The notes under the pieces were generated by a model. The model saw nothing but the letters and a program-made list of their open reading frames with translations, was not told where the DNA came from and searched no databases. The translations under genes were made by a program, and so were the position numbers. From Gemmatimonadales bacterium (GTDB lineage Bacteria > Gemmatimonadota > Gemmatimonadetes > Longimicrobiales > Gaopeijiaceae), in NCBI GenBank assembly GCA_020344755.1, contig CP070829.1, positions 327,323 through 391,322 of the forward strand: a DNA stretch of 64,000 nucleotides, read 5' to 3'. Below, in pieces: positions 53,367-64,000 of this stretch (position 1 is its first letter; each line of letters begins with the position of its first letter).

Positions 53367-53735
53367 ATGCCCGTTCCCGACCCACTCCCCCCGATTCCCG
53401 AGGACGACGAGGCCCTCCTGAGCGAGTGCCGCGTGGACACGTTCCGGGCGGGGGGTAAGGGAGGCCAGCACCAGAACACCACGGAGACCGGCGTCCGGCT
53501 GGTCCACCGGCCCACCGGGCTCCGCGCGGAGAGCCGAACGGAACGCAGCCAGCTGCAGAATCGCCGCCGGGCCCTGGCTCGGCTGCGATCCAAGCTCGAA
53601 GAACTGCATCGGAAGCGGCCGGAGCGCGTCCCCACCCGTATTCCCGCGGCCCAGCGACGCAAGCGGCTGGAGGAGAAGCGGCGGCGGGGTGAGACGAAGC
53701 GCCTGAGAAAGCGTCCCGATCCGGGAGGCGAGTGA
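53367..53735 (+). CDS. Peptide chain release factor-like protein (RF-1 domain only)
   Basis: This 122-residue protein is a single RF-1 catalytic domain with the GGQ tripeptide at 32-34 (AGGKGGQHQNTTETGVRLVH) and a long basic C-terminal tail rich in R and K. It lacks stop-codon reading domains, as in ArfB-type ribosome rescue hydrolases, whose basic tail enters the empty mRNA channel. It could therefore rescue stalled ribosomes. Its stop overlaps the P-type ATPase start (GTGA). Confidence 0.88.
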   Translation: MPVPDPLPPIPEDDEALLSECRVDTFRAGGKGGQHQNTTETGVRLVHRPTGLRAESRTERSQLQNRRRALARLRSKLEELHRKRPERVPTRIPAAQRRKRLEEKRRRGETKRLRKRPDPGGE

Positions 53736-57784: not shown

Positions 57785-59176
57785 TCAGTGGGAGTGCGCG
57801 TCCGCGGACCGGTACTGGTCGAAGCTCGCGGTCCCCGGCTCCAGCCCGAATCGCAGGCCGACCTTCCTGCGAACCTCTCGCCGGACCAGCGGGTTGTAGG
57901 TCAAGTACACCCCGGCCCGGTACGGACTCCGGAGATGCGTCCGGAAGTCCAGGAAACGCCGGAGGATGGTGAGGGGGCGGCTCCAGGTGTGGCGAGCCTC
58001 CGCCAGCGCCCGGGTCAGCTCGTCCGGATCGATCCGCCTGGGCACGAAGGGCGTCGCGTTCACCCGGTAATCCGGGTGGAGCCACCAGCGACCCCCGTAC
58101 AGCAGCCGGTCCTCCTTCTGGAGGCTCCGGTAGAGCTCCGTGCCCGGATAGGGTGTGAGGACATTGAACGCAGCGAAGGCGAACTTCTGCCGGATCGCCC
58201 AGTCCAGGGTCCGCTTCACGGTGTCCAGCGTGTCGGTGTCGTGCCCGAAGGTGAGCGCCGCCCAGGTCTGAAGGCCGTAATCCCGAAGGATCTCGAGCTG
58301 GCGGGCATACGGCCCGGCGGCCGAGTGCAGAATGTTCGGATGTCCCTTGCCCATCCGACGGATGGCCTCGGGGTCGAGGCTCTCGAAGCCGATGACGTGC
58401 CCCAGACACCCGCTCTCGGCCATCAGCGACATGAGCTCCGGATCCTCCGTCATGTCGATGGAGCCCTGGGAGACCCATCGAATCTTGAGGGGGATCAAGG
58501 CCCGGCAGAGCTCCTTGGCGAGCTCCGGATTCGCCGTGAAGTTGTCGTCCACGAAGAAGACGATCTTCTTCTCGAGTGTGGCGAGCTCGGCCACGATCTC
58601 GTCGATGTGCCGGTGGTACAGCCGGCGGTCGAAATAGCGTGAGACCGCGCAGAAGGTGCATGCGAAGGGGCACCCCCGGCTGAACTGCATCAGGTGGATG
58701 GGAAGGTAGCCCTTCCCGCGGTAGAGGTCTCTTCGGGGTCGCAGACCCCTCGACTGGGCCACCCCCGGCGAAGCCCGGTATACAGGCTGCAGCCGCCCCC
58801 GTGCCGCATCGGCCACGACCTCCGGCCAGCCCTGCTCCGCATCCCCCAGGAAGACACTGTCCGCATGGGCCCTCGCCTCTTCCGTTGCGAGGGTGGTGTG
58901 GACGCCCCCGAGGACCACCGGTACACCCCGCTGTCGGTATTCGTCGGCGATCTGGTAGGCGCGGCGGGCGGTCCACGTCTCCACCGTGATTCCCACCAGC
59001 GAGGTGGGTTCGTCGAAGGGGATCCGCTCCATCCGGTCGTCGTAGATGCGCACGTCCACATCCGGGGGCGTCAGACCGGCGATCACCGAGAGCGTGAGGG
59101 GCTCCATGCGGGCCTCGTCCACGTAGAGCGTGTCGTCCGAGGTCCCGATGCGCGGCTTGATCAGGGTGACCCTCAT
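57785..59176 (-). CDS. B12-binding-type radical SAM enzyme A
   Basis: This is a 463-residue class B-like radical SAM protein. The N-terminal Rossmann part (about 1-140) has IKPRIG, YDDRMERIPFDEPTSLVGITVETWTARRAYQIAD and VPVVLGGVHTTL, the cobalamin-domain layout without the DxHxxG motif, as is common in this class. The iron-sulphur cysteines are C169, C173 and C176 (CPFACTFC). The barrel shows FFVDDNFTANPELAKEL, SIDMTEDPELMSLM and IGFESLDPE. It ends with a PGTELYRSL/RPLTI region possibly of DUF4070 type. The ATG overlaps enzyme B's stop (ATGA). Such enzymes methylate or rearrange unactivated carbons; the substrate is unknown. Confidence 0.88.
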   Translation of the reverse strand: MRVTLIKPRIGTSDDTLYVDEARMEPLTLSVIAGLTPPDVDVRIYDDRMERIPFDEPTSLVGITVETWTARRAYQIADEYRQRGVPVVLGGVHTTLATEEARAHADSVFLGDAEQGWPEVVADAARGRLQPVYRASPGVAQSRGLRPRRDLYRGKGYLPIHLMQFSRGCPFACTFCAVSRYFDRRLYHRHIDEIVAELATLEKKIVFFVDDNFTANPELAKELCRALIPLKIRWVSQGSIDMTEDPELMSLMAESGCLGHVIGFESLDPEAIRRMGKGHPNILHSAAGPYARQLEILRDYGLQTWAALTFGHDTDTLDTVKRTLDWAIRQKFAFAAFNVLTPYPGTELYRSLQKEDRLLYGGRWWLHPDYRVNATPFVPRRIDPDELTRALAEARHTWSRPLTILRRFLDFRTHLRSPYRAGVYLTYNPLVRREVRRKVGLRFGLEPGTASFDQYRSADAHSH

Positions 59177-60531
59177 GGCAGACCCTCCGCCGGGACCGGC
59201 GTCCGCCCCGGCTGGGTTGAGGGCGGACGGGCGCCCAGTGGTGCATCCTGCTTGCGGTGGATCTCGGTGCGCGAGATGAGGTTGACGGCGAGGAAGACTC
59301 CCAGGTTGTAGAGGCTCGACAGGTTGGTGCGGCGGTCGAAGGCCCGTCGGGCGATGCTGCTCAGCGTGTTGAAGCGGGTGCGGGCCCGGTAGCACCCCTC
59401 CTCCAGCTCCGTGGCCGTCATCCCCCGGGGGTGGAAGGTCGCGTGGCCGTACCGATACGAGGGATCGAGCCACCAAGGGTCCCGGATGAGCCGGCCCTCG
59501 CGCCGGAGCCGCTCGTAGAGGGACGTCGCCGGCGTGGGCGTGAGCGGATTGAAGTTCGCCAGGAAGAACTTGTTGCGGACGGCGAACTCCAGGTTGCGCT
59601 CGAACGAATCCGGCGTGTCCCGGTCGTATCCGTGGACGAAGGTGCCGTAGATCATCAGGCCGGCATCCTTGAGGCGCTCGATGGCCCCTTCGTACCCCTG
59701 GGCCTTCGCGTTCCAAGCCTTCCGCATCTGCTTCAGGTTCGCCGGATCCAGGGTCTCGAACCCGATGAGCACGGAGATGCAGCCGCTTCGGCGCATGAGA
59801 TCGACCATGCCGGGCTTCCACGCCACGTCGATGGAGGTCTGGCAGGTCCAGCGGATCCCCAGGGGTACGAGGGCCTCGAACAGCTCCTCCGCCCGGGCCT
59901 CGTCGGCGAAGATGTTGTCGTCCACCAGGAAGACGAGCTTGCCATCCAGCGCCTCGATCTCCTCCACCACTTCGCGCACCGGCCGCTGCCTCAGGTTCCG
60001 GCCGTAGAAGGCGTGGATAGAGCAGAAGTCGCAGGCCCACTTGCAGCCGCGACCGTACTGAACCAGGCGGACCGGCGCGTAACCCTTTCCCTGGAAGATG
60101 GACCGGTCCGGGGTGATCCCGGCCAAGGGCGGGGGTGCGGCCTGCCCGTACCGGGGTGCGAGGCGCCGACGGCGCGCATCTTCCACCACCCGGGGCCAGA
60201 CGCCCTCAGCGTCCCCCAGCACGAGCGCGTCCGCGTGCCGGGCCGCTTCGTCGGGTACGAAGGTGGGGTGATAGCCACCCATCACCACCGGCACACCCCG
60301 GGCCCGGAAGGCATCAGCCAGCTGGTAGGCACGGCGAGCGGTATACGTCTCCACCGTCATGGCCACGAGGTCCGTCGGCTCGTCCAGGGGGATTTCCTCG
60401 AGGCGCTCGTCGTACAGGACGCGCTCCACGTCCGGCGGCGTCATGGCCGAGAGGTAGCCGAACGCCAGCGGGGTCATCGCATCCGACGACCGCAGGTCGC
60501 CCATGCTCGGCTTGATGAACGAGATGTGCAT
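59173..60531 (-). CDS. B12-binding-type radical SAM enzyme B
   Basis: This 452-residue paralogue of enzyme A has IKPSMGDLRSSD, LDEPTDLVAMTVETYTARRAYQLAD and PVVMGGYHPTFVPDE in the cobalamin-type part. Cluster cysteines are C163, C167 and C170 (CKWACDFC). Then come FLVDDNIFADEARAEELF, TSIDVAWKPGMVDLM, IGFETLDPANL and a C-terminal tail with NLISRTEIHRKQDAPLG. The ATG at 60531 has AAGGGGG upstream; the 17-codon extension to 60582 is not needed. It leads the leftward pair and its stop overlaps enzyme A. Confidence 0.88.
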   Translation of the reverse strand: MHISFIKPSMGDLRSSDAMTPLAFGYLSAMTPPDVERVLYDERLEEIPLDEPTDLVAMTVETYTARRAYQLADAFRARGVPVVMGGYHPTFVPDEAARHADALVLGDAEGVWPRVVEDARRRRLAPRYGQAAPPPLAGITPDRSIFQGKGYAPVRLVQYGRGCKWACDFCSIHAFYGRNLRQRPVREVVEEIEALDGKLVFLVDDNIFADEARAEELFEALVPLGIRWTCQTSIDVAWKPGMVDLMRRSGCISVLIGFETLDPANLKQMRKAWNAKAQGYEGAIERLKDAGLMIYGTFVHGYDRDTPDSFERNLEFAVRNKFFLANFNPLTPTPATSLYERLRREGRLIRDPWWLDPSYRYGHATFHPRGMTATELEEGCYRARTRFNTLSSIARRAFDRRTNLSSLYNLGVFLAVNLISRTEIHRKQDAPLGARPPSTQPGRTPVPAEGLP

Positions 60532-60553
60532 CCGTGCCCCCTTGTCCGTTGGA

Positions 60554-60582
60554 ATTGTCCGGTCCCGGCCGCCGCACCGCAA
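60554..60582 (-). promoter_or_regulatory. Candidate promoter of the leftward radical SAM pair
   Basis: On the minus strand TTGCGG (60582-60577), exactly 17 bases, then GACAAT (60559-60554), four of six matches at the -10. The start point would lie about 16 bases before the enzyme B ATG, leaving room for its AAGGGGG ribosome site. Confidence 0.45.
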
Positions 60583-60669
60583 CCATCTCGACGAGGAGAC
60601 CCCCTACCTATTGCACGCGGACCCGGTGCTCCCTGATCTTCAGATCCAGGCGGCGAGGAGGCCGCGCAC

Positions 60670-62076
60670 ATGCCAACCAGGACCGAGGAGCCTACCAGCA
60701 CGATGCCCCTGCGCATCGCCCTGATCTCCCCCAAAGGCCCGCTGTATCGGCACCGCGGCGGCATCTGGCGGAAGTCGCTCCGGTATCAGCCTCTCACCCT
60801 CACCACCCTCGCGGCGCTGATCCCCGAGGATCTGCCCCATACCGTGGCCTGCATCGACGAGGGGATCGAGGACGTGCCCCTCGACCTGGACGTCGACGTG
60901 GTAGGACTCACCGTCATCACCGGGACGGCGGTGCGTGCGTACGAGCTGGCCGATCACTTCCGCTCCCGGGGAATCACGGTCGTCCTCGGGGGACCCCACG
61001 TCACCCTGGTGCCCGACAACGCCCAGCCTCACGCCGACGCGGTGGTGGTAGGCTACGCGGAGGACACCTGGCCCCAGCTCCTGCGGGACCAACGCGCCGG
61101 CCGGCTCCGCCCGCGCTACACCATGGCTCCGGACTTGAGCCTGGCGGACCGGCCCTTCCCGCGTCGAGACCTCCTCCCCAGCCACCGATTCGTCACCGCC
61201 GACGTGTTCGAGGCCACGCGGGGCTGCGCCCACGCCTGCGAGTTCTGCGTGGTTCCCACGGCGTGGGGCCGACACCAGCTCCAGAAGCCGGTGGAGGACG
61301 TGGTGGAGGACATCCGCCGGCAGGGCGCTCGCCGGGCGATCTTCGTGGACCTGAACCTCATCTCGGACCGGCGCTACGCCCGGGAGCTGTTCACCGCTCT
61401 CATCCCCCTCCGGGTGGACTGGTACGGGCTGGCCACGGTCCTCCTGGTGGACGACCCCGAGCTCCTCGACCTGTGCGCCCGCAGCGGCTGTCGCGGTCTC
61501 CTCATGGGACTCGAGTCCCTCTCCCCCGCGAACCTCCAGGGGACGCGAAAGGGCTTCAACCGGCCGGAGCACTTCGCCCGTGTGGTGGAACGGCTCCACG
61601 ACCACGGTATCGCCCTGCAGGGCTGCTTCGTATTCGGCCTGGACGAGGACGACCCGGACATCTTCCTGAGGACCGCCCAATTCGCCGTGGATGCGGCGAT
61701 CGACCTGCCGCGATTCGCGGTGGTGACGCCCTTCCCCAACACCCCCCTCTACCGGCGGCTCGAGGCCGAAGGGCGCATCCTTACGCGAAACTGGGAGCTC
61801 TACGACGGACAGCATGTGGTCTTCCAACCGGCGCGCATGAGTCCAGAGGAGCTCCGGGACGGCGTGGAAGCGGCGTGGAAGCACACGTACAGCCTCGGTA
61901 GCACCTGGCGGCGGATCCGGCGGTCACCCGCCCCCTGGCCGACCCGGATCGCGACGAACCTCGGCTACCGCTTCTACGCGAATCACCTGTCGCGCTACTA
62001 CAACTGTGACTGGATCATCGGACCCGCACCCGCCCGGGACACCGGCCCAGGTGCCTCCGCGGGGGTTTCCGCATGA
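60670..62076 (+). CDS. B12-binding-type radical SAM enzyme C, the divergent member
   Basis: This 468-residue radical SAM protein shares the layout but not all motifs of its neighbours. Cobalamin-type part: LISPKGPLYRHRGG, VGLTVITGTAVRAYELADHF and VVLGGPHVTLVPD. Cluster cysteines are C186, C190 and C193 (CAHACEFC). Barrel: IFVDLNLISDRRYARELF, LMGLESLSPANLQGTRKGF, PFPNTPLYRRL. The C-terminus has NHLSRYYNCDW instead of the R-x-E/D-R tail of B and D. The ATG at 60670 has GAGGAGG eight bases upstream. It starts the rightward unit and its stop overlaps enzyme D. Confidence 0.88.
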   Translation: MPTRTEEPTSTMPLRIALISPKGPLYRHRGGIWRKSLRYQPLTLTTLAALIPEDLPHTVACIDEGIEDVPLDLDVDVVGLTVITGTAVRAYELADHFRSRGITVVLGGPHVTLVPDNAQPHADAVVVGYAEDTWPQLLRDQRAGRLRPRYTMAPDLSLADRPFPRRDLLPSHRFVTADVFEATRGCAHACEFCVVPTAWGRHQLQKPVEDVVEDIRRQGARRAIFVDLNLISDRRYARELFTALIPLRVDWYGLATVLLVDDPELLDLCARSGCRGLLMGLESLSPANLQGTRKGFNRPEHFARVVERLHDHGIALQGCFVFGLDEDDPDIFLRTAQFAVDAAIDLPRFAVVTPFPNTPLYRRLEAEGRILTRNWELYDGQHVVFQPARMSPEELRDGVEAAWKHTYSLGSTWRRIRRSPAPWPTRIATNLGYRFYANHLSRYYNCDWIIGPAPARDTGPGASAGVSA

Positions 62077-63437
62077 AGCCGTTCCGGATCACCCTGGTCC
62101 ACCCCTGCGTGGGCCGGAGGCCCGGGCAGCGCTATATCCGCACATGGCAGATGGAGTCGCTCCCGGCCGCGACCTTGGCCGGCCTGACCCCGCCGGACGT
62201 GCAGGTCCGCTTCTACGATGACCGCTTGGAGCGAATCCCCTTCGACGAGCCCACCGACCTCGTGGGGATCAGCGTGGAGACGTATACGGCGAAGAGGGCG
62301 TACCAAATTGCCAGCGACTACCGGCGGCGTGGCGTCCCGGTGGTGATGGGCGGCTTCCACGCCATGCTCTGTCCGGACGAAGTCGCGGACTTCGCGGAGG
62401 CGGTGGTGGTGGGAGAGGCCGAATCGGTCTGGGCTGGGCTCGTGGATGACGCCCGGCACGGCACGCTGAAGAAGTTCTATCGGCCGGCTGGCCGGCCGTC
62501 CCTGGAAGCGGTCCAACCCGACCGGTCCATCTTCCGGGGCAAGCGCTACCTGCCCATCGGGCTCGTCGAGGCCGGGCGGGGCTGTCACCTGCGATGCGAC
62601 TTCTGCGCGGTGCAGACCGTCTTTTCGCAGACCCAGACCCGCCGTCCCATCGACCAGATCCTGGCGGAGGTCGAGTCGCTCAAGAAGAAGAAGCGGATCT
62701 TCTTCTTCGTCGACGACAACATCACCTCCAACATGACGCAGGCGAAGGAGTTCTTCCGGGCCCTGGCGCCGCTGGGAATCCGGTGGGTGAGCCAGGCCAG
62801 CATCAACGCCGCGCACGACGAGGAATTCCTCGATCTCCTTGTGCGAAGCGGGTGCCAGGGGGTCCTCATCGGTCTGGAAAGCCTGGACCCGGAGAACCTC
62901 GCCGCCATGGACAAGGCGGTGAACGTGGTCCGGGGTGGCCTCGAAGCCGGGCTGGCGAATCTGCGCCGCCACGGAATCCGCGTGTACGGGACGTTCATCT
63001 TCGGCTACGACCGGGACACCGCCGCGAGCTTCGGGCCGGCGGTGGATTTCGCGCAGCGGCATCGGTTCTACATCGCGGCCTTCAACCACCTCACGCCGTT
63101 TCCCGGCACCCCGCTGTACCGGCGCTTGCAAGACGAGGGCCGGCTCCTCTACGAGACCTGGTGGCTGGACGACCGCTACAGCTACAACCGGATCCCCTTC
63201 CAGCCGAAGGGGATGACACCGGAGGAGCTTCGGAGGGCCTGCCTCGAAGCACGCCGGGAGTTCTACGGGTTGGGGAACATCCTCCAGCGGGGAGTGGACC
63301 GCGTGAACCGAGGGAACGCGTTCATGCTGCGGAACTTCCTCCCGATCAATCTCATGCACCGGGGCGACGTGAGTCGTCGGGACCACTATCCCCTGGGGGA
63401 CATGGCGTGGCGCAACGAGTTCGTGCCGGCAGGGTGA
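62073..63437 (+). CDS. B12-binding-type radical SAM enzyme D
   Basis: This 454-residue protein is closest to enzymes A and B: YDDRLERIPFDEPTDLVG, SVETYTAKRAYQIASDY and VPVVMGGFHAMLCPDE. Cluster cysteines are C171, C175 and C178 (CHLRCDFC). Then FFFVDDNITSNMTQAKEFF, SINAAHDEEFLDLL and LIGLESLDPENLAAMDK, PFPGTPLYRRL, and a tail NLMHRGDVSRRDHYPLGD like that of enzyme B. The ATG overlaps enzyme C's stop and its stop overlaps the GNAT-like gene (GTGA), so C, D and the acetyltransferase are translated as one unit. Confidence 0.88.
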   Translation: MKPFRITLVHPCVGRRPGQRYIRTWQMESLPAATLAGLTPPDVQVRFYDDRLERIPFDEPTDLVGISVETYTAKRAYQIASDYRRRGVPVVMGGFHAMLCPDEVADFAEAVVVGEAESVWAGLVDDARHGTLKKFYRPAGRPSLEAVQPDRSIFRGKRYLPIGLVEAGRGCHLRCDFCAVQTVFSQTQTRRPIDQILAEVESLKKKKRIFFFVDDNITSNMTQAKEFFRALAPLGIRWVSQASINAAHDEEFLDLLVRSGCQGVLIGLESLDPENLAAMDKAVNVVRGGLEAGLANLRRHGIRVYGTFIFGYDRDTAASFGPAVDFAQRHRFYIAAFNHLTPFPGTPLYRRLQDEGRLLYETWWLDDRYSYNRIPFQPKGMTPEELRRACLEARREFYGLGNILQRGVDRVNRGNAFMLRNFLPINLMHRGDVSRRDHYPLGDMAWRNEFVPAG

Positions 63438-64000
63438 CGTCCACGGCGGTAGGCCCAGGTGGATGGGCTTTTGCTGGACCGGAGGACGACGCGGACGTGC
63501 GGGCGCTCCTACGGACGTCCGTCATGCCCGGGTCCGTCGACGTGGCGTTCACCCGGGAGCCCCGTCACGAGGTCGGCTCCGGCCTCGCCGGAGCGGTGGA
63601 CCGGACCCTGCTCTACCGTGACGGATCCCGTCTCGACGGCGTCGGCCGCCTCAGCGTCCTCGACCTTTGGCGAGGGGGCCTCCCCCAGCGTGTGGGCTAC
63701 TTCGGAGACCTACGGGTCCGGTCGCAGGCACGCCGCCCGGCCCGCATCCTCCGGGACGGATACCGGATCCTGTGTGAGGCCGCCGAGGAGTTGGGAGTGG
63801 CCGGGTGCTTCACGAGCATCGCTACGGACAACGACCGGGCCCGGCGGGTCCTCGAGCGAGGGAGGCGGATCGGACTCCCGGAGTACCTCCCCATCGCCGA
63901 CCTGGTCACTCTCGTGGTTCCGGTCCGCCGGCCGCGTGCGCCTTTCGGCGATCCCGCGCCGAAGGCCCACGCGACCGAGAGCGAGCTCACTTCCTTCCTC
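63434..64000 (+). CDS. GNAT-like acetyltransferase, C-terminus cut by window edge
   Basis: The 189 visible codons start at the GTG that overlaps enzyme D's stop. The N-terminal half resembles a GNAT fold: GGWAFAGPEDDADVRALLRTSV, TREPRHE. Then a strand and acetyl-CoA-binding loop-like segment VGYFGDLRVRSQARRPARILRDGYRIL, and AAEELGVAGCFTSIATDNDRARRVLERG, with its I-A-x-D-N-x-x-A-x-x-x-L pattern typical of GNAT motif B. The reading frame is open to base 64000. It may modify the product or a carrier of the radical SAM pathway. Confidence 0.7.
   Translation, partial: MTSTAVGPGGWAFAGPEDDADVRALLRTSVMPGSVDVAFTREPRHEVGSGLAGAVDRTLLYRDGSRLDGVGRLSVLDLWRGGLPQRVGYFGDLRVRSQARRPARILRDGYRILCEAAEELGVAGCFTSIATDNDRARRVLERGRRIGLPEYLPIADLVTLVVPVRRPRAPFGDPAPKAHATESELTSFL

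Follow-up and report, generated by a model that had tools for sequence, protein, structure and literature searches.

A horizontally moving operon of GH3, acetyltransferase and B12-type radical SAM genes in a Gemmatimonadales bacterium

Gene arrangement and extent of the locus

The 64,000-nucleotide stretch of Gemmatimonadales bacterium contig CP070829.1 analysed here (the window; 327323-391322 of this single contig of 4.1 Mb) has near its end four genes, A to D, for radical S-adenosylmethionine (SAM) enzymes with B12-binding domains. The window edge cuts the operon in mid-gene, inside the gene that follows D, and reading of the adjoining stretch past the window end showed A-D to be half of a longer operon that continues through two Gcn5-related N-acetyltransferases (GNATs; G1 and G2), a GH3-family amide synthetase and an ATP-binding cassette (ABC) exporter. 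Coordinates and Pfam agree with the initial annotation, which had described the radical SAM genes as two divergent pairs with four-base overlaps, and the extension past position 64000 that it had suggested as a search for synthetases led to the GH3 gene. Positions beyond the window are given in the numbering of the locus, L009 (window position = L009 position + 52677).

57785-59176, minus strand: gene A, B12-domain radical SAM enzyme, 463 aa; module 2
59173-60531, minus strand: gene B, B12-domain radical SAM enzyme, 452 aa; module 2, four-base overlap with A
60532-60669: divergent gap between B and C, 138 bases; presumed promoter region
60670-62076, plus strand: gene C, B12-domain radical SAM enzyme with DUF4070 start, 468 aa; core
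62073-63437, plus strand: gene D, B12-domain radical SAM enzyme, 454 aa; core, marker for searches
63434-64537 (L009:10757-11860), plus strand: G1 (GNAT1), predicted tandem-GNAT acyltransferase, 367 aa, GTG start; crosses the window end at 64000
L009:11857-12600, plus strand: G2, second GNAT; beyond the window
L009:12597-14201 (start about 12597), plus strand: GH3-family amide synthetase; beyond the window
L009:14198-15349, plus strand: MacB/FtsX permease; beyond the window
L009:15346-16035, plus strand: ABC ATPase; beyond the window

The overlaps between A and B, C and D, and D and G1 are exactly four bases each, and serial four-base overlaps mark every plus-strand junction from C through the ABC ATPase. 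An opposing hydrolase gene follows the ABC ATPase, and a gene that we read from its translation as acetate kinase faces A, so that the unit is bounded at both ends. Scans for promoters and terminators returned no more than shuffled sequence would, and the gap between B and C holds no sigma-70-like match.

Radical SAM enzymes, their conservation and their movement

All four proteins match Radical_SAM (PF04055; E 2e-12 to 2e-18). A family-model search for the cobalamin domain and DUF4070, as proposed in the initial annotation, recovered the first above the Pfam cut-off at the N-termini of A, B and C, with D just under it, and the second, at threshold, in C and D only. The intact CxxxCxxC motif and the VET(Y/W)TA(K/R)RAYQ(I/L)A block are there as first described, as is the PLG tail shared by B and D, and within the orthologue groups these features are conserved. 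Scanning the whole 4.1-Mb genome with the B12-binding model gave nine matches, four of which are A-D within 5.7 kb; together with the recurrence of the arrangement across phyla, this indicates clustering beyond chance. C and D as well as A and B probably use cobalamin, although a B12-type domain in a sequence is no proof of such use. The chemistry of B12 radical SAM enzymes includes methylation of unactivated carbon or phosphorus, ring contraction, and the formation of rings or thioethers (PMC13331322).

With D as query over 84,980 species genomes, 131 candidates were confirmed and 80 loci kept, in which the D orthologues are 57-76% identical. By NCBI labels these loci span 13 named phyla (Verrucomicrobiota, Pseudomonadota, Chloroflexota, Acidobacteriota, Planctomycetota, Campylobacterota, Deinococcota, Fidelibacterota, Myxococcota, Elusimicrobiota, Bacteroidota, Thermodesulfobacteriota and Gemmatimonadota); because many of them come from metagenome-assembled genomes, in which single phylum labels may be wrong, we give the breadth as at least twelve phyla. 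Among the 52 loci with enough flanking sequence, G1 and G2 were each found in 50, C in 49 and GH3 in 48, whereas B was found in 20 and A in 18. The order C-D-G1-G2-GH3 is nearly invariant, and the divergent layout of A-B against C-D-G1-G2-GH3 also occurs in L077 (Neoroseomonas oryzicola), L079, L085, L092 and L093. C-D is thus near universal and A-B is a second module, present in about 20 loci; the idea of a co-regulated tailoring set holds up, but not that of a single set of four. As side observations, clusters in Chloroflexota (L069, L070 and L071) have an extra SPASM radical SAM protein, and in L055 a macro-domain gene lies immediately before D.

The initial annotation knew of no described pathway with these genes, and this is upheld insofar as A-D all fall below every NCBIfam equivalog cut-off and the cluster was not found in the literature; the combination is described by no equivalog model and by no paper that we found, the latter being weak evidence of absence because only open-licence literature was covered. 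HpnJ, BchE, PhpK, HpnR and TIGR04072 were tried as identities and rejected, with A-D far below each cut-off (B reaches 95 of 481 bits on BchE). A hopanoid role was rejected as well: the genome has no squalene-hopene cyclase (PF13243), for which two control genomes were positive. Weak shared radical SAM similarity to HpnJ, BchE, TIGR04072 and RimO speaks for hopanoid, bacteriochlorophyll, ladderane-type or tRNA/ribosome modification, but a comparison of neighbourhoods showed the genes clustered with GH3 and GNATs across phyla rather than scattered into known pathways, and this linkage, with the low scores and the missing cyclase, makes such roles extremely improbable.

The history of the paralogues was examined in a FastTree tree of 204 sequences, in which some B and outlying rows have long branches. 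A and D form clades with support 100, and B, a starred set, has 99; C, which the initial annotation had already set apart from the other three, lies further off. Since A, B and D are separate groups, C stands apart and all extend across phyla, the paralogues predate their dispersal among the phyla sampled. A recent local duplication, as the earlier description of duplicated enzymes might suggest, is ruled out by the tree.

Within the host lineage the distribution is patchy. D was not found in the five same-genus genomes searched; it occurs in two same-family genomes at 62-63% identity and reaches 76-77% in three genomes from a different family of the same class. Of 395 genomes in the phylum, 6 have D at E 1e-100 or better. 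This patchiness within genus and family indicates that the cluster moves horizontally, and direct support comes from a Citrobacter portucalensis from a gull, whose mobilizable IncFIB/IncFII plasmid carries a complete cluster (L119; NZ_CP134684.1, 40060-71391). The plasmid set reads G2-GH3-C-D-G1-B-A-PAP2-SnoaL-like, joined by a desaturase and one more B12 radical SAM gene, the fifth; no near DNA relative of it was found among Escherichia coli genomes or other plasmids. The pattern is that of a mosaic cluster that moves horizontally.

Assembly core, companion genes and probable product

GH3 enzymes activate a free acid by adenylation and transfer it to an amine. The GH3 protein of the operon, encoded by the only such gene in the genome, matches PF03321, PF23571 and PF23572 above cut-off, and when built into a profile, 27 orthologues align with residues 20-550 of plant JAR1, nearly the full length (E 1e-35). 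Of the ATP-binding motifs, TSGSSGARK and GLWRYRLGD are present, and the motif 2 glutamate is kept in a changed context. The acetyltransferase that the initial annotation placed after D is G1, which like G2 has no Pfam family. Sequence profiles of both gave no significant match against the PDB, and fold prediction (AlphaFold/AF2) was used instead, on the orthologues of the Acidobacteriota locus L038. The G1 model (pLDDT 90) has a tandem GNAT fold, with its better TM-scores (0.55-0.59) to N-myristoyltransferases (NMTs) and its lowest E-values to other tandem GNATs; G1 is thus NMT-like by fold similarity only, and a long-chain acyl-CoA is its putative donor. The G2 model (pLDDT 93) has a GNAT fold extended at the C-terminus and comes closest to AAC(2') and NatD.

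The same three genes also exist without radical SAM partners. In Acinetobacter baumannii (L120:7171-14850, NZ_CP064203.1) genes of EmrA type, EmrB type, G2, GH3, TolC type and G1 stand in a row, with no radical SAM genes beside the trio, and in Burkholderia arboris (L122) G2, GH3 and G1 occur without radical SAM genes and with desaturase-like and Rieske-like matches; profile E-values for the trio in these two loci are 1e-42 to 1e-126. The EmrAB-like pump of L120 may export a GH3/GNAT product. Because G2-GH3-G1 exists without radical SAM genes, we assign assembly to GH3 and the GNATs as the core and tailoring to the radical SAM enzymes, with export as a general feature whose genes vary. The view of the radical SAM quartet as the centre of the cluster accordingly gives way to one in which GH3 and the two GNATs, lying mostly outside the window, are central. 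Upstream of the EmrA-type gene in L120 are a LuxR-type regulator and an amidase; the 3.97-Mb record NZ_CP064203.1 is filed as a plasmid and is evidently a chromosome. A G2 homologue (profile E 6e-40) is further present on plasmid ABSP7_p1 of Azospirillum brasilense Sp 7 (L121), where no GH3, G1 or radical SAM homologue was found within 10 kb, indicating that G2 can act in another context.

Companion genes were collected by clustering open reading frames (ORFs) of at least 80 aa in the loci, followed by Pfam and NCBIfam searches. FA_desaturase was the companion in 31 loci, SnoaL-like proteins in 24, Rieske proteins in 21, two PAP2 families in 17 and 14, MMPL proteins of HAE3/HpnN type in 7, AurF in 5 and a hexapeptide protein in 4; in L081 PAP2 is fused to a desaturase. 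Two companions have no family, a membrane protein often found after A (10 loci) and protein f10 (12 loci). The former, represented by L083:15135-15806 and its relatives, is a conserved multi-pass protein with an HHGF motif, often directly after A. Export genes differ by lineage: the exporter of the window operon is of the MacB/Lol-type ABC kind, which also occurs in the L038 operon, and MMPL or EmrAB-TolC-type genes take its place elsewhere. The companions are mostly enzymes of hydrophobic substrates, and the desaturase, PAP2, HpnN-like MMPL, Rieske and AurF genes point to lipid or hydrophobic substrates.

The same clustering bears on whether this could be a cluster for a ribosomally synthesized and post-translationally modified peptide (RiPP), or for peptide modification more generally, with an overlooked small precursor. 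Such a product would be in keeping with the ApyD-like similarity, with the ability of some B12 radical SAM enzymes to modify peptides and with the SPASM protein added in Chloroflexota loci. Clustering of the ORFs of at least 80 aa, however, yielded neither a peptidase nor a leader-binding family nor any conserved group of small ORFs, and the serial four-base overlaps leave the plus-strand operon without room for a precursor, so that we hold a peptide product to be highly improbable.

We propose, with a probability of about 0.5, that the cluster is a mobile operon for the synthesis of an amide, without the use of carrier proteins, and for its export, the product most likely being amino-lipid-like or an N-acyl-amide. 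GH3 would adenylate a free fatty acid or other hydrophobic acid and couple it to an amine, as do plant JAR1 and bacterial OlsH, and G1 and G2, as an NMT-like tandem GNAT and a single GNAT, would acylate the amine part. C and D, then A and B, would use SAM and probably cobalamin on unactivated carbons of the chain or head, by C-methylation, cyclisation or desaturation, and the ABC exporter would release the product into the medium or bring it to the outer envelope. As the initial annotation supposed, the radical SAM set may carry out successive methylation or rearrangement of one scaffold.

Several observations weigh against this proposal. The B12-binding domain of D scores 29.4 bits against a cut-off of 32.1, and the best PDB relative of D is AprD4, which we take to work without cobalamin. 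GH3 reaches 32.1 bits on the OlsH model NF052613, for which the equivalog cut-off is 620, and identity with OlsH was rejected. The lipid-type companion genes are not adjacent to the window operon, and a desaturase probe of its own genome, a single probe without a positive control, gave no match. Finally, the desaturase-like protein of L071 is more similar to GntB, an arginine hydroxylase, than to DesA/DesB; as the desaturase family includes such amino-acid hydroxylases, a small-molecule product keeps some probability.

In that case the product would be soluble, a modified amino acid or pseudo-dipeptide serving for example as a signal or antimetabolite: GH3 would join two small acids or amino acids, the GNATs would acylate and the radical SAM enzymes would methylate amino-acid carbons. 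Besides the L071 protein, the small acids used by plant GH3 enzymes (e.g., jasmonate and benzoates), the AurF-type N-oxygenase among the companions, the EmrAB-TolC-type efflux genes adjoining the Acinetobacter version and the resemblance of the G2 model to aminoglycoside and NatD acetyltransferases all fit this picture. The NMT-like fold of G1 nevertheless favours hydrophobic substrates, as do the PAP2, MMPL/HpnN-like and Lol/MacB-type partners, and we see a soluble product as possible, if on the unlikely side. Alternatively, the operon might decorate an existing envelope lipid (an ornithine-lipid-like aminolipid or a phospholipid), modifying the membrane in adaptation to stress rather than making a secreted metabolite, which would accord with the membrane aminolipid made through the GH3 enzyme OlsH, with the desaturase, PAP2 and hexapeptide-type partners and with the many phyla involved. 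The patchy distribution (none of five same-genus genomes and 6 of 395 in the phylum) resembles that of an accessory product more than that of a membrane lipid, and the export genes vary by lineage; both make envelope decoration quite unlikely.

Elsewhere in the window, a gene on the plus strand (53367-53735) encodes a 122-aa protein with a GGKGGQHQNTTETGVRL motif that resembles a short release factor or ArfB-type hydrolase; it overlaps a P-type ATPase gene by four bases.

Relation to known systems and significance

To our knowledge, bacterial GH3 amide chemistry has so far been known for ornithine lipids. OlsH is a bacterial GH3 enzyme that makes N-acyl-ornithine from free fatty acids without acyl carrier protein or CoA (PMC12493201). 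The OlsH/OlsI pathway of Singulisphaera acidiphila resembles the present cluster in a carrier-free step for which GH3 is taken as the amide-forming enzyme, in having an acyltransferase partner and in the occurrence of GH3 homologues in many phyla; it differs in that no radical SAM enzyme is described there and in that its acyltransferase is an alpha/beta-hydrolase, here a GNAT (PMC12493201). The Acinetobacter baumannii G2-GH3-TolC-G1 locus has homologous GH3 and GNAT proteins (E 1e-48 to 1e-104) and likewise adjoins export genes, but lacks radical SAM genes and has tripartite export of major facilitator type instead of an ABC exporter.

Several B12-type radical SAM tailoring enzymes per cluster are found in the thienamycin (ThnK/ThnL/ThnP) and bacteriochlorophyll c systems. 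The core here is GH3 with GNATs, unlike in either of these, and no beta-lactam, porphyrin, polyketide synthase (PKS), nonribosomal peptide synthetase (NRPS) or RiPP genes were seen. Radical SAM enzymes that act on lipids include GrsA/GrsB, the ring synthases of glycerol dialkyl glycerol tetraethers, and the hopanoid methylases HpnP and HpnR. Together with the TIGR04072 lipid B12 radical SAM proteins they parallel A-D as radical SAM enzymes, mostly with B12 domains, and they act on lipid chains, whereas on HpnR and TIGR04072 the scores of A-D are far too low for equivalence and the genome lacks a hopanoid cyclase. Each part is thus of a known kind; as far as shown, what is new is the combination, in which two to five B12-type radical SAM enzymes accompany a GH3 core that needs no carrier, and how widely it occurs.

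With a core free of PKS, NRPS, terpene or RiPP genes, the cluster is likely missed by class-based genome mining. Cultured carriers include Chthoniobacter flavus Ellin428 as well as Neoroseomonas oryzicola KCTC 22478, whose divergent layout is the one seen here, and the product is therefore directly findable. The core is nearly the same in at least twelve phyla, and a mobilizable plasmid of an enterobacterium carries it too. On balance, and by a slight preference, we regard these loci as a hitherto undescribed, horizontally moving cluster class in which carrier-free assembly by GH3 and two GNATs is followed by remodelling of unactivated carbons through B12-type radical SAM enzymes, two to five per cluster, the products being modified bacterial acyl amides of a new class; such a cluster would join GH3 amide chemistry to stacked B12-type radical enzymes.

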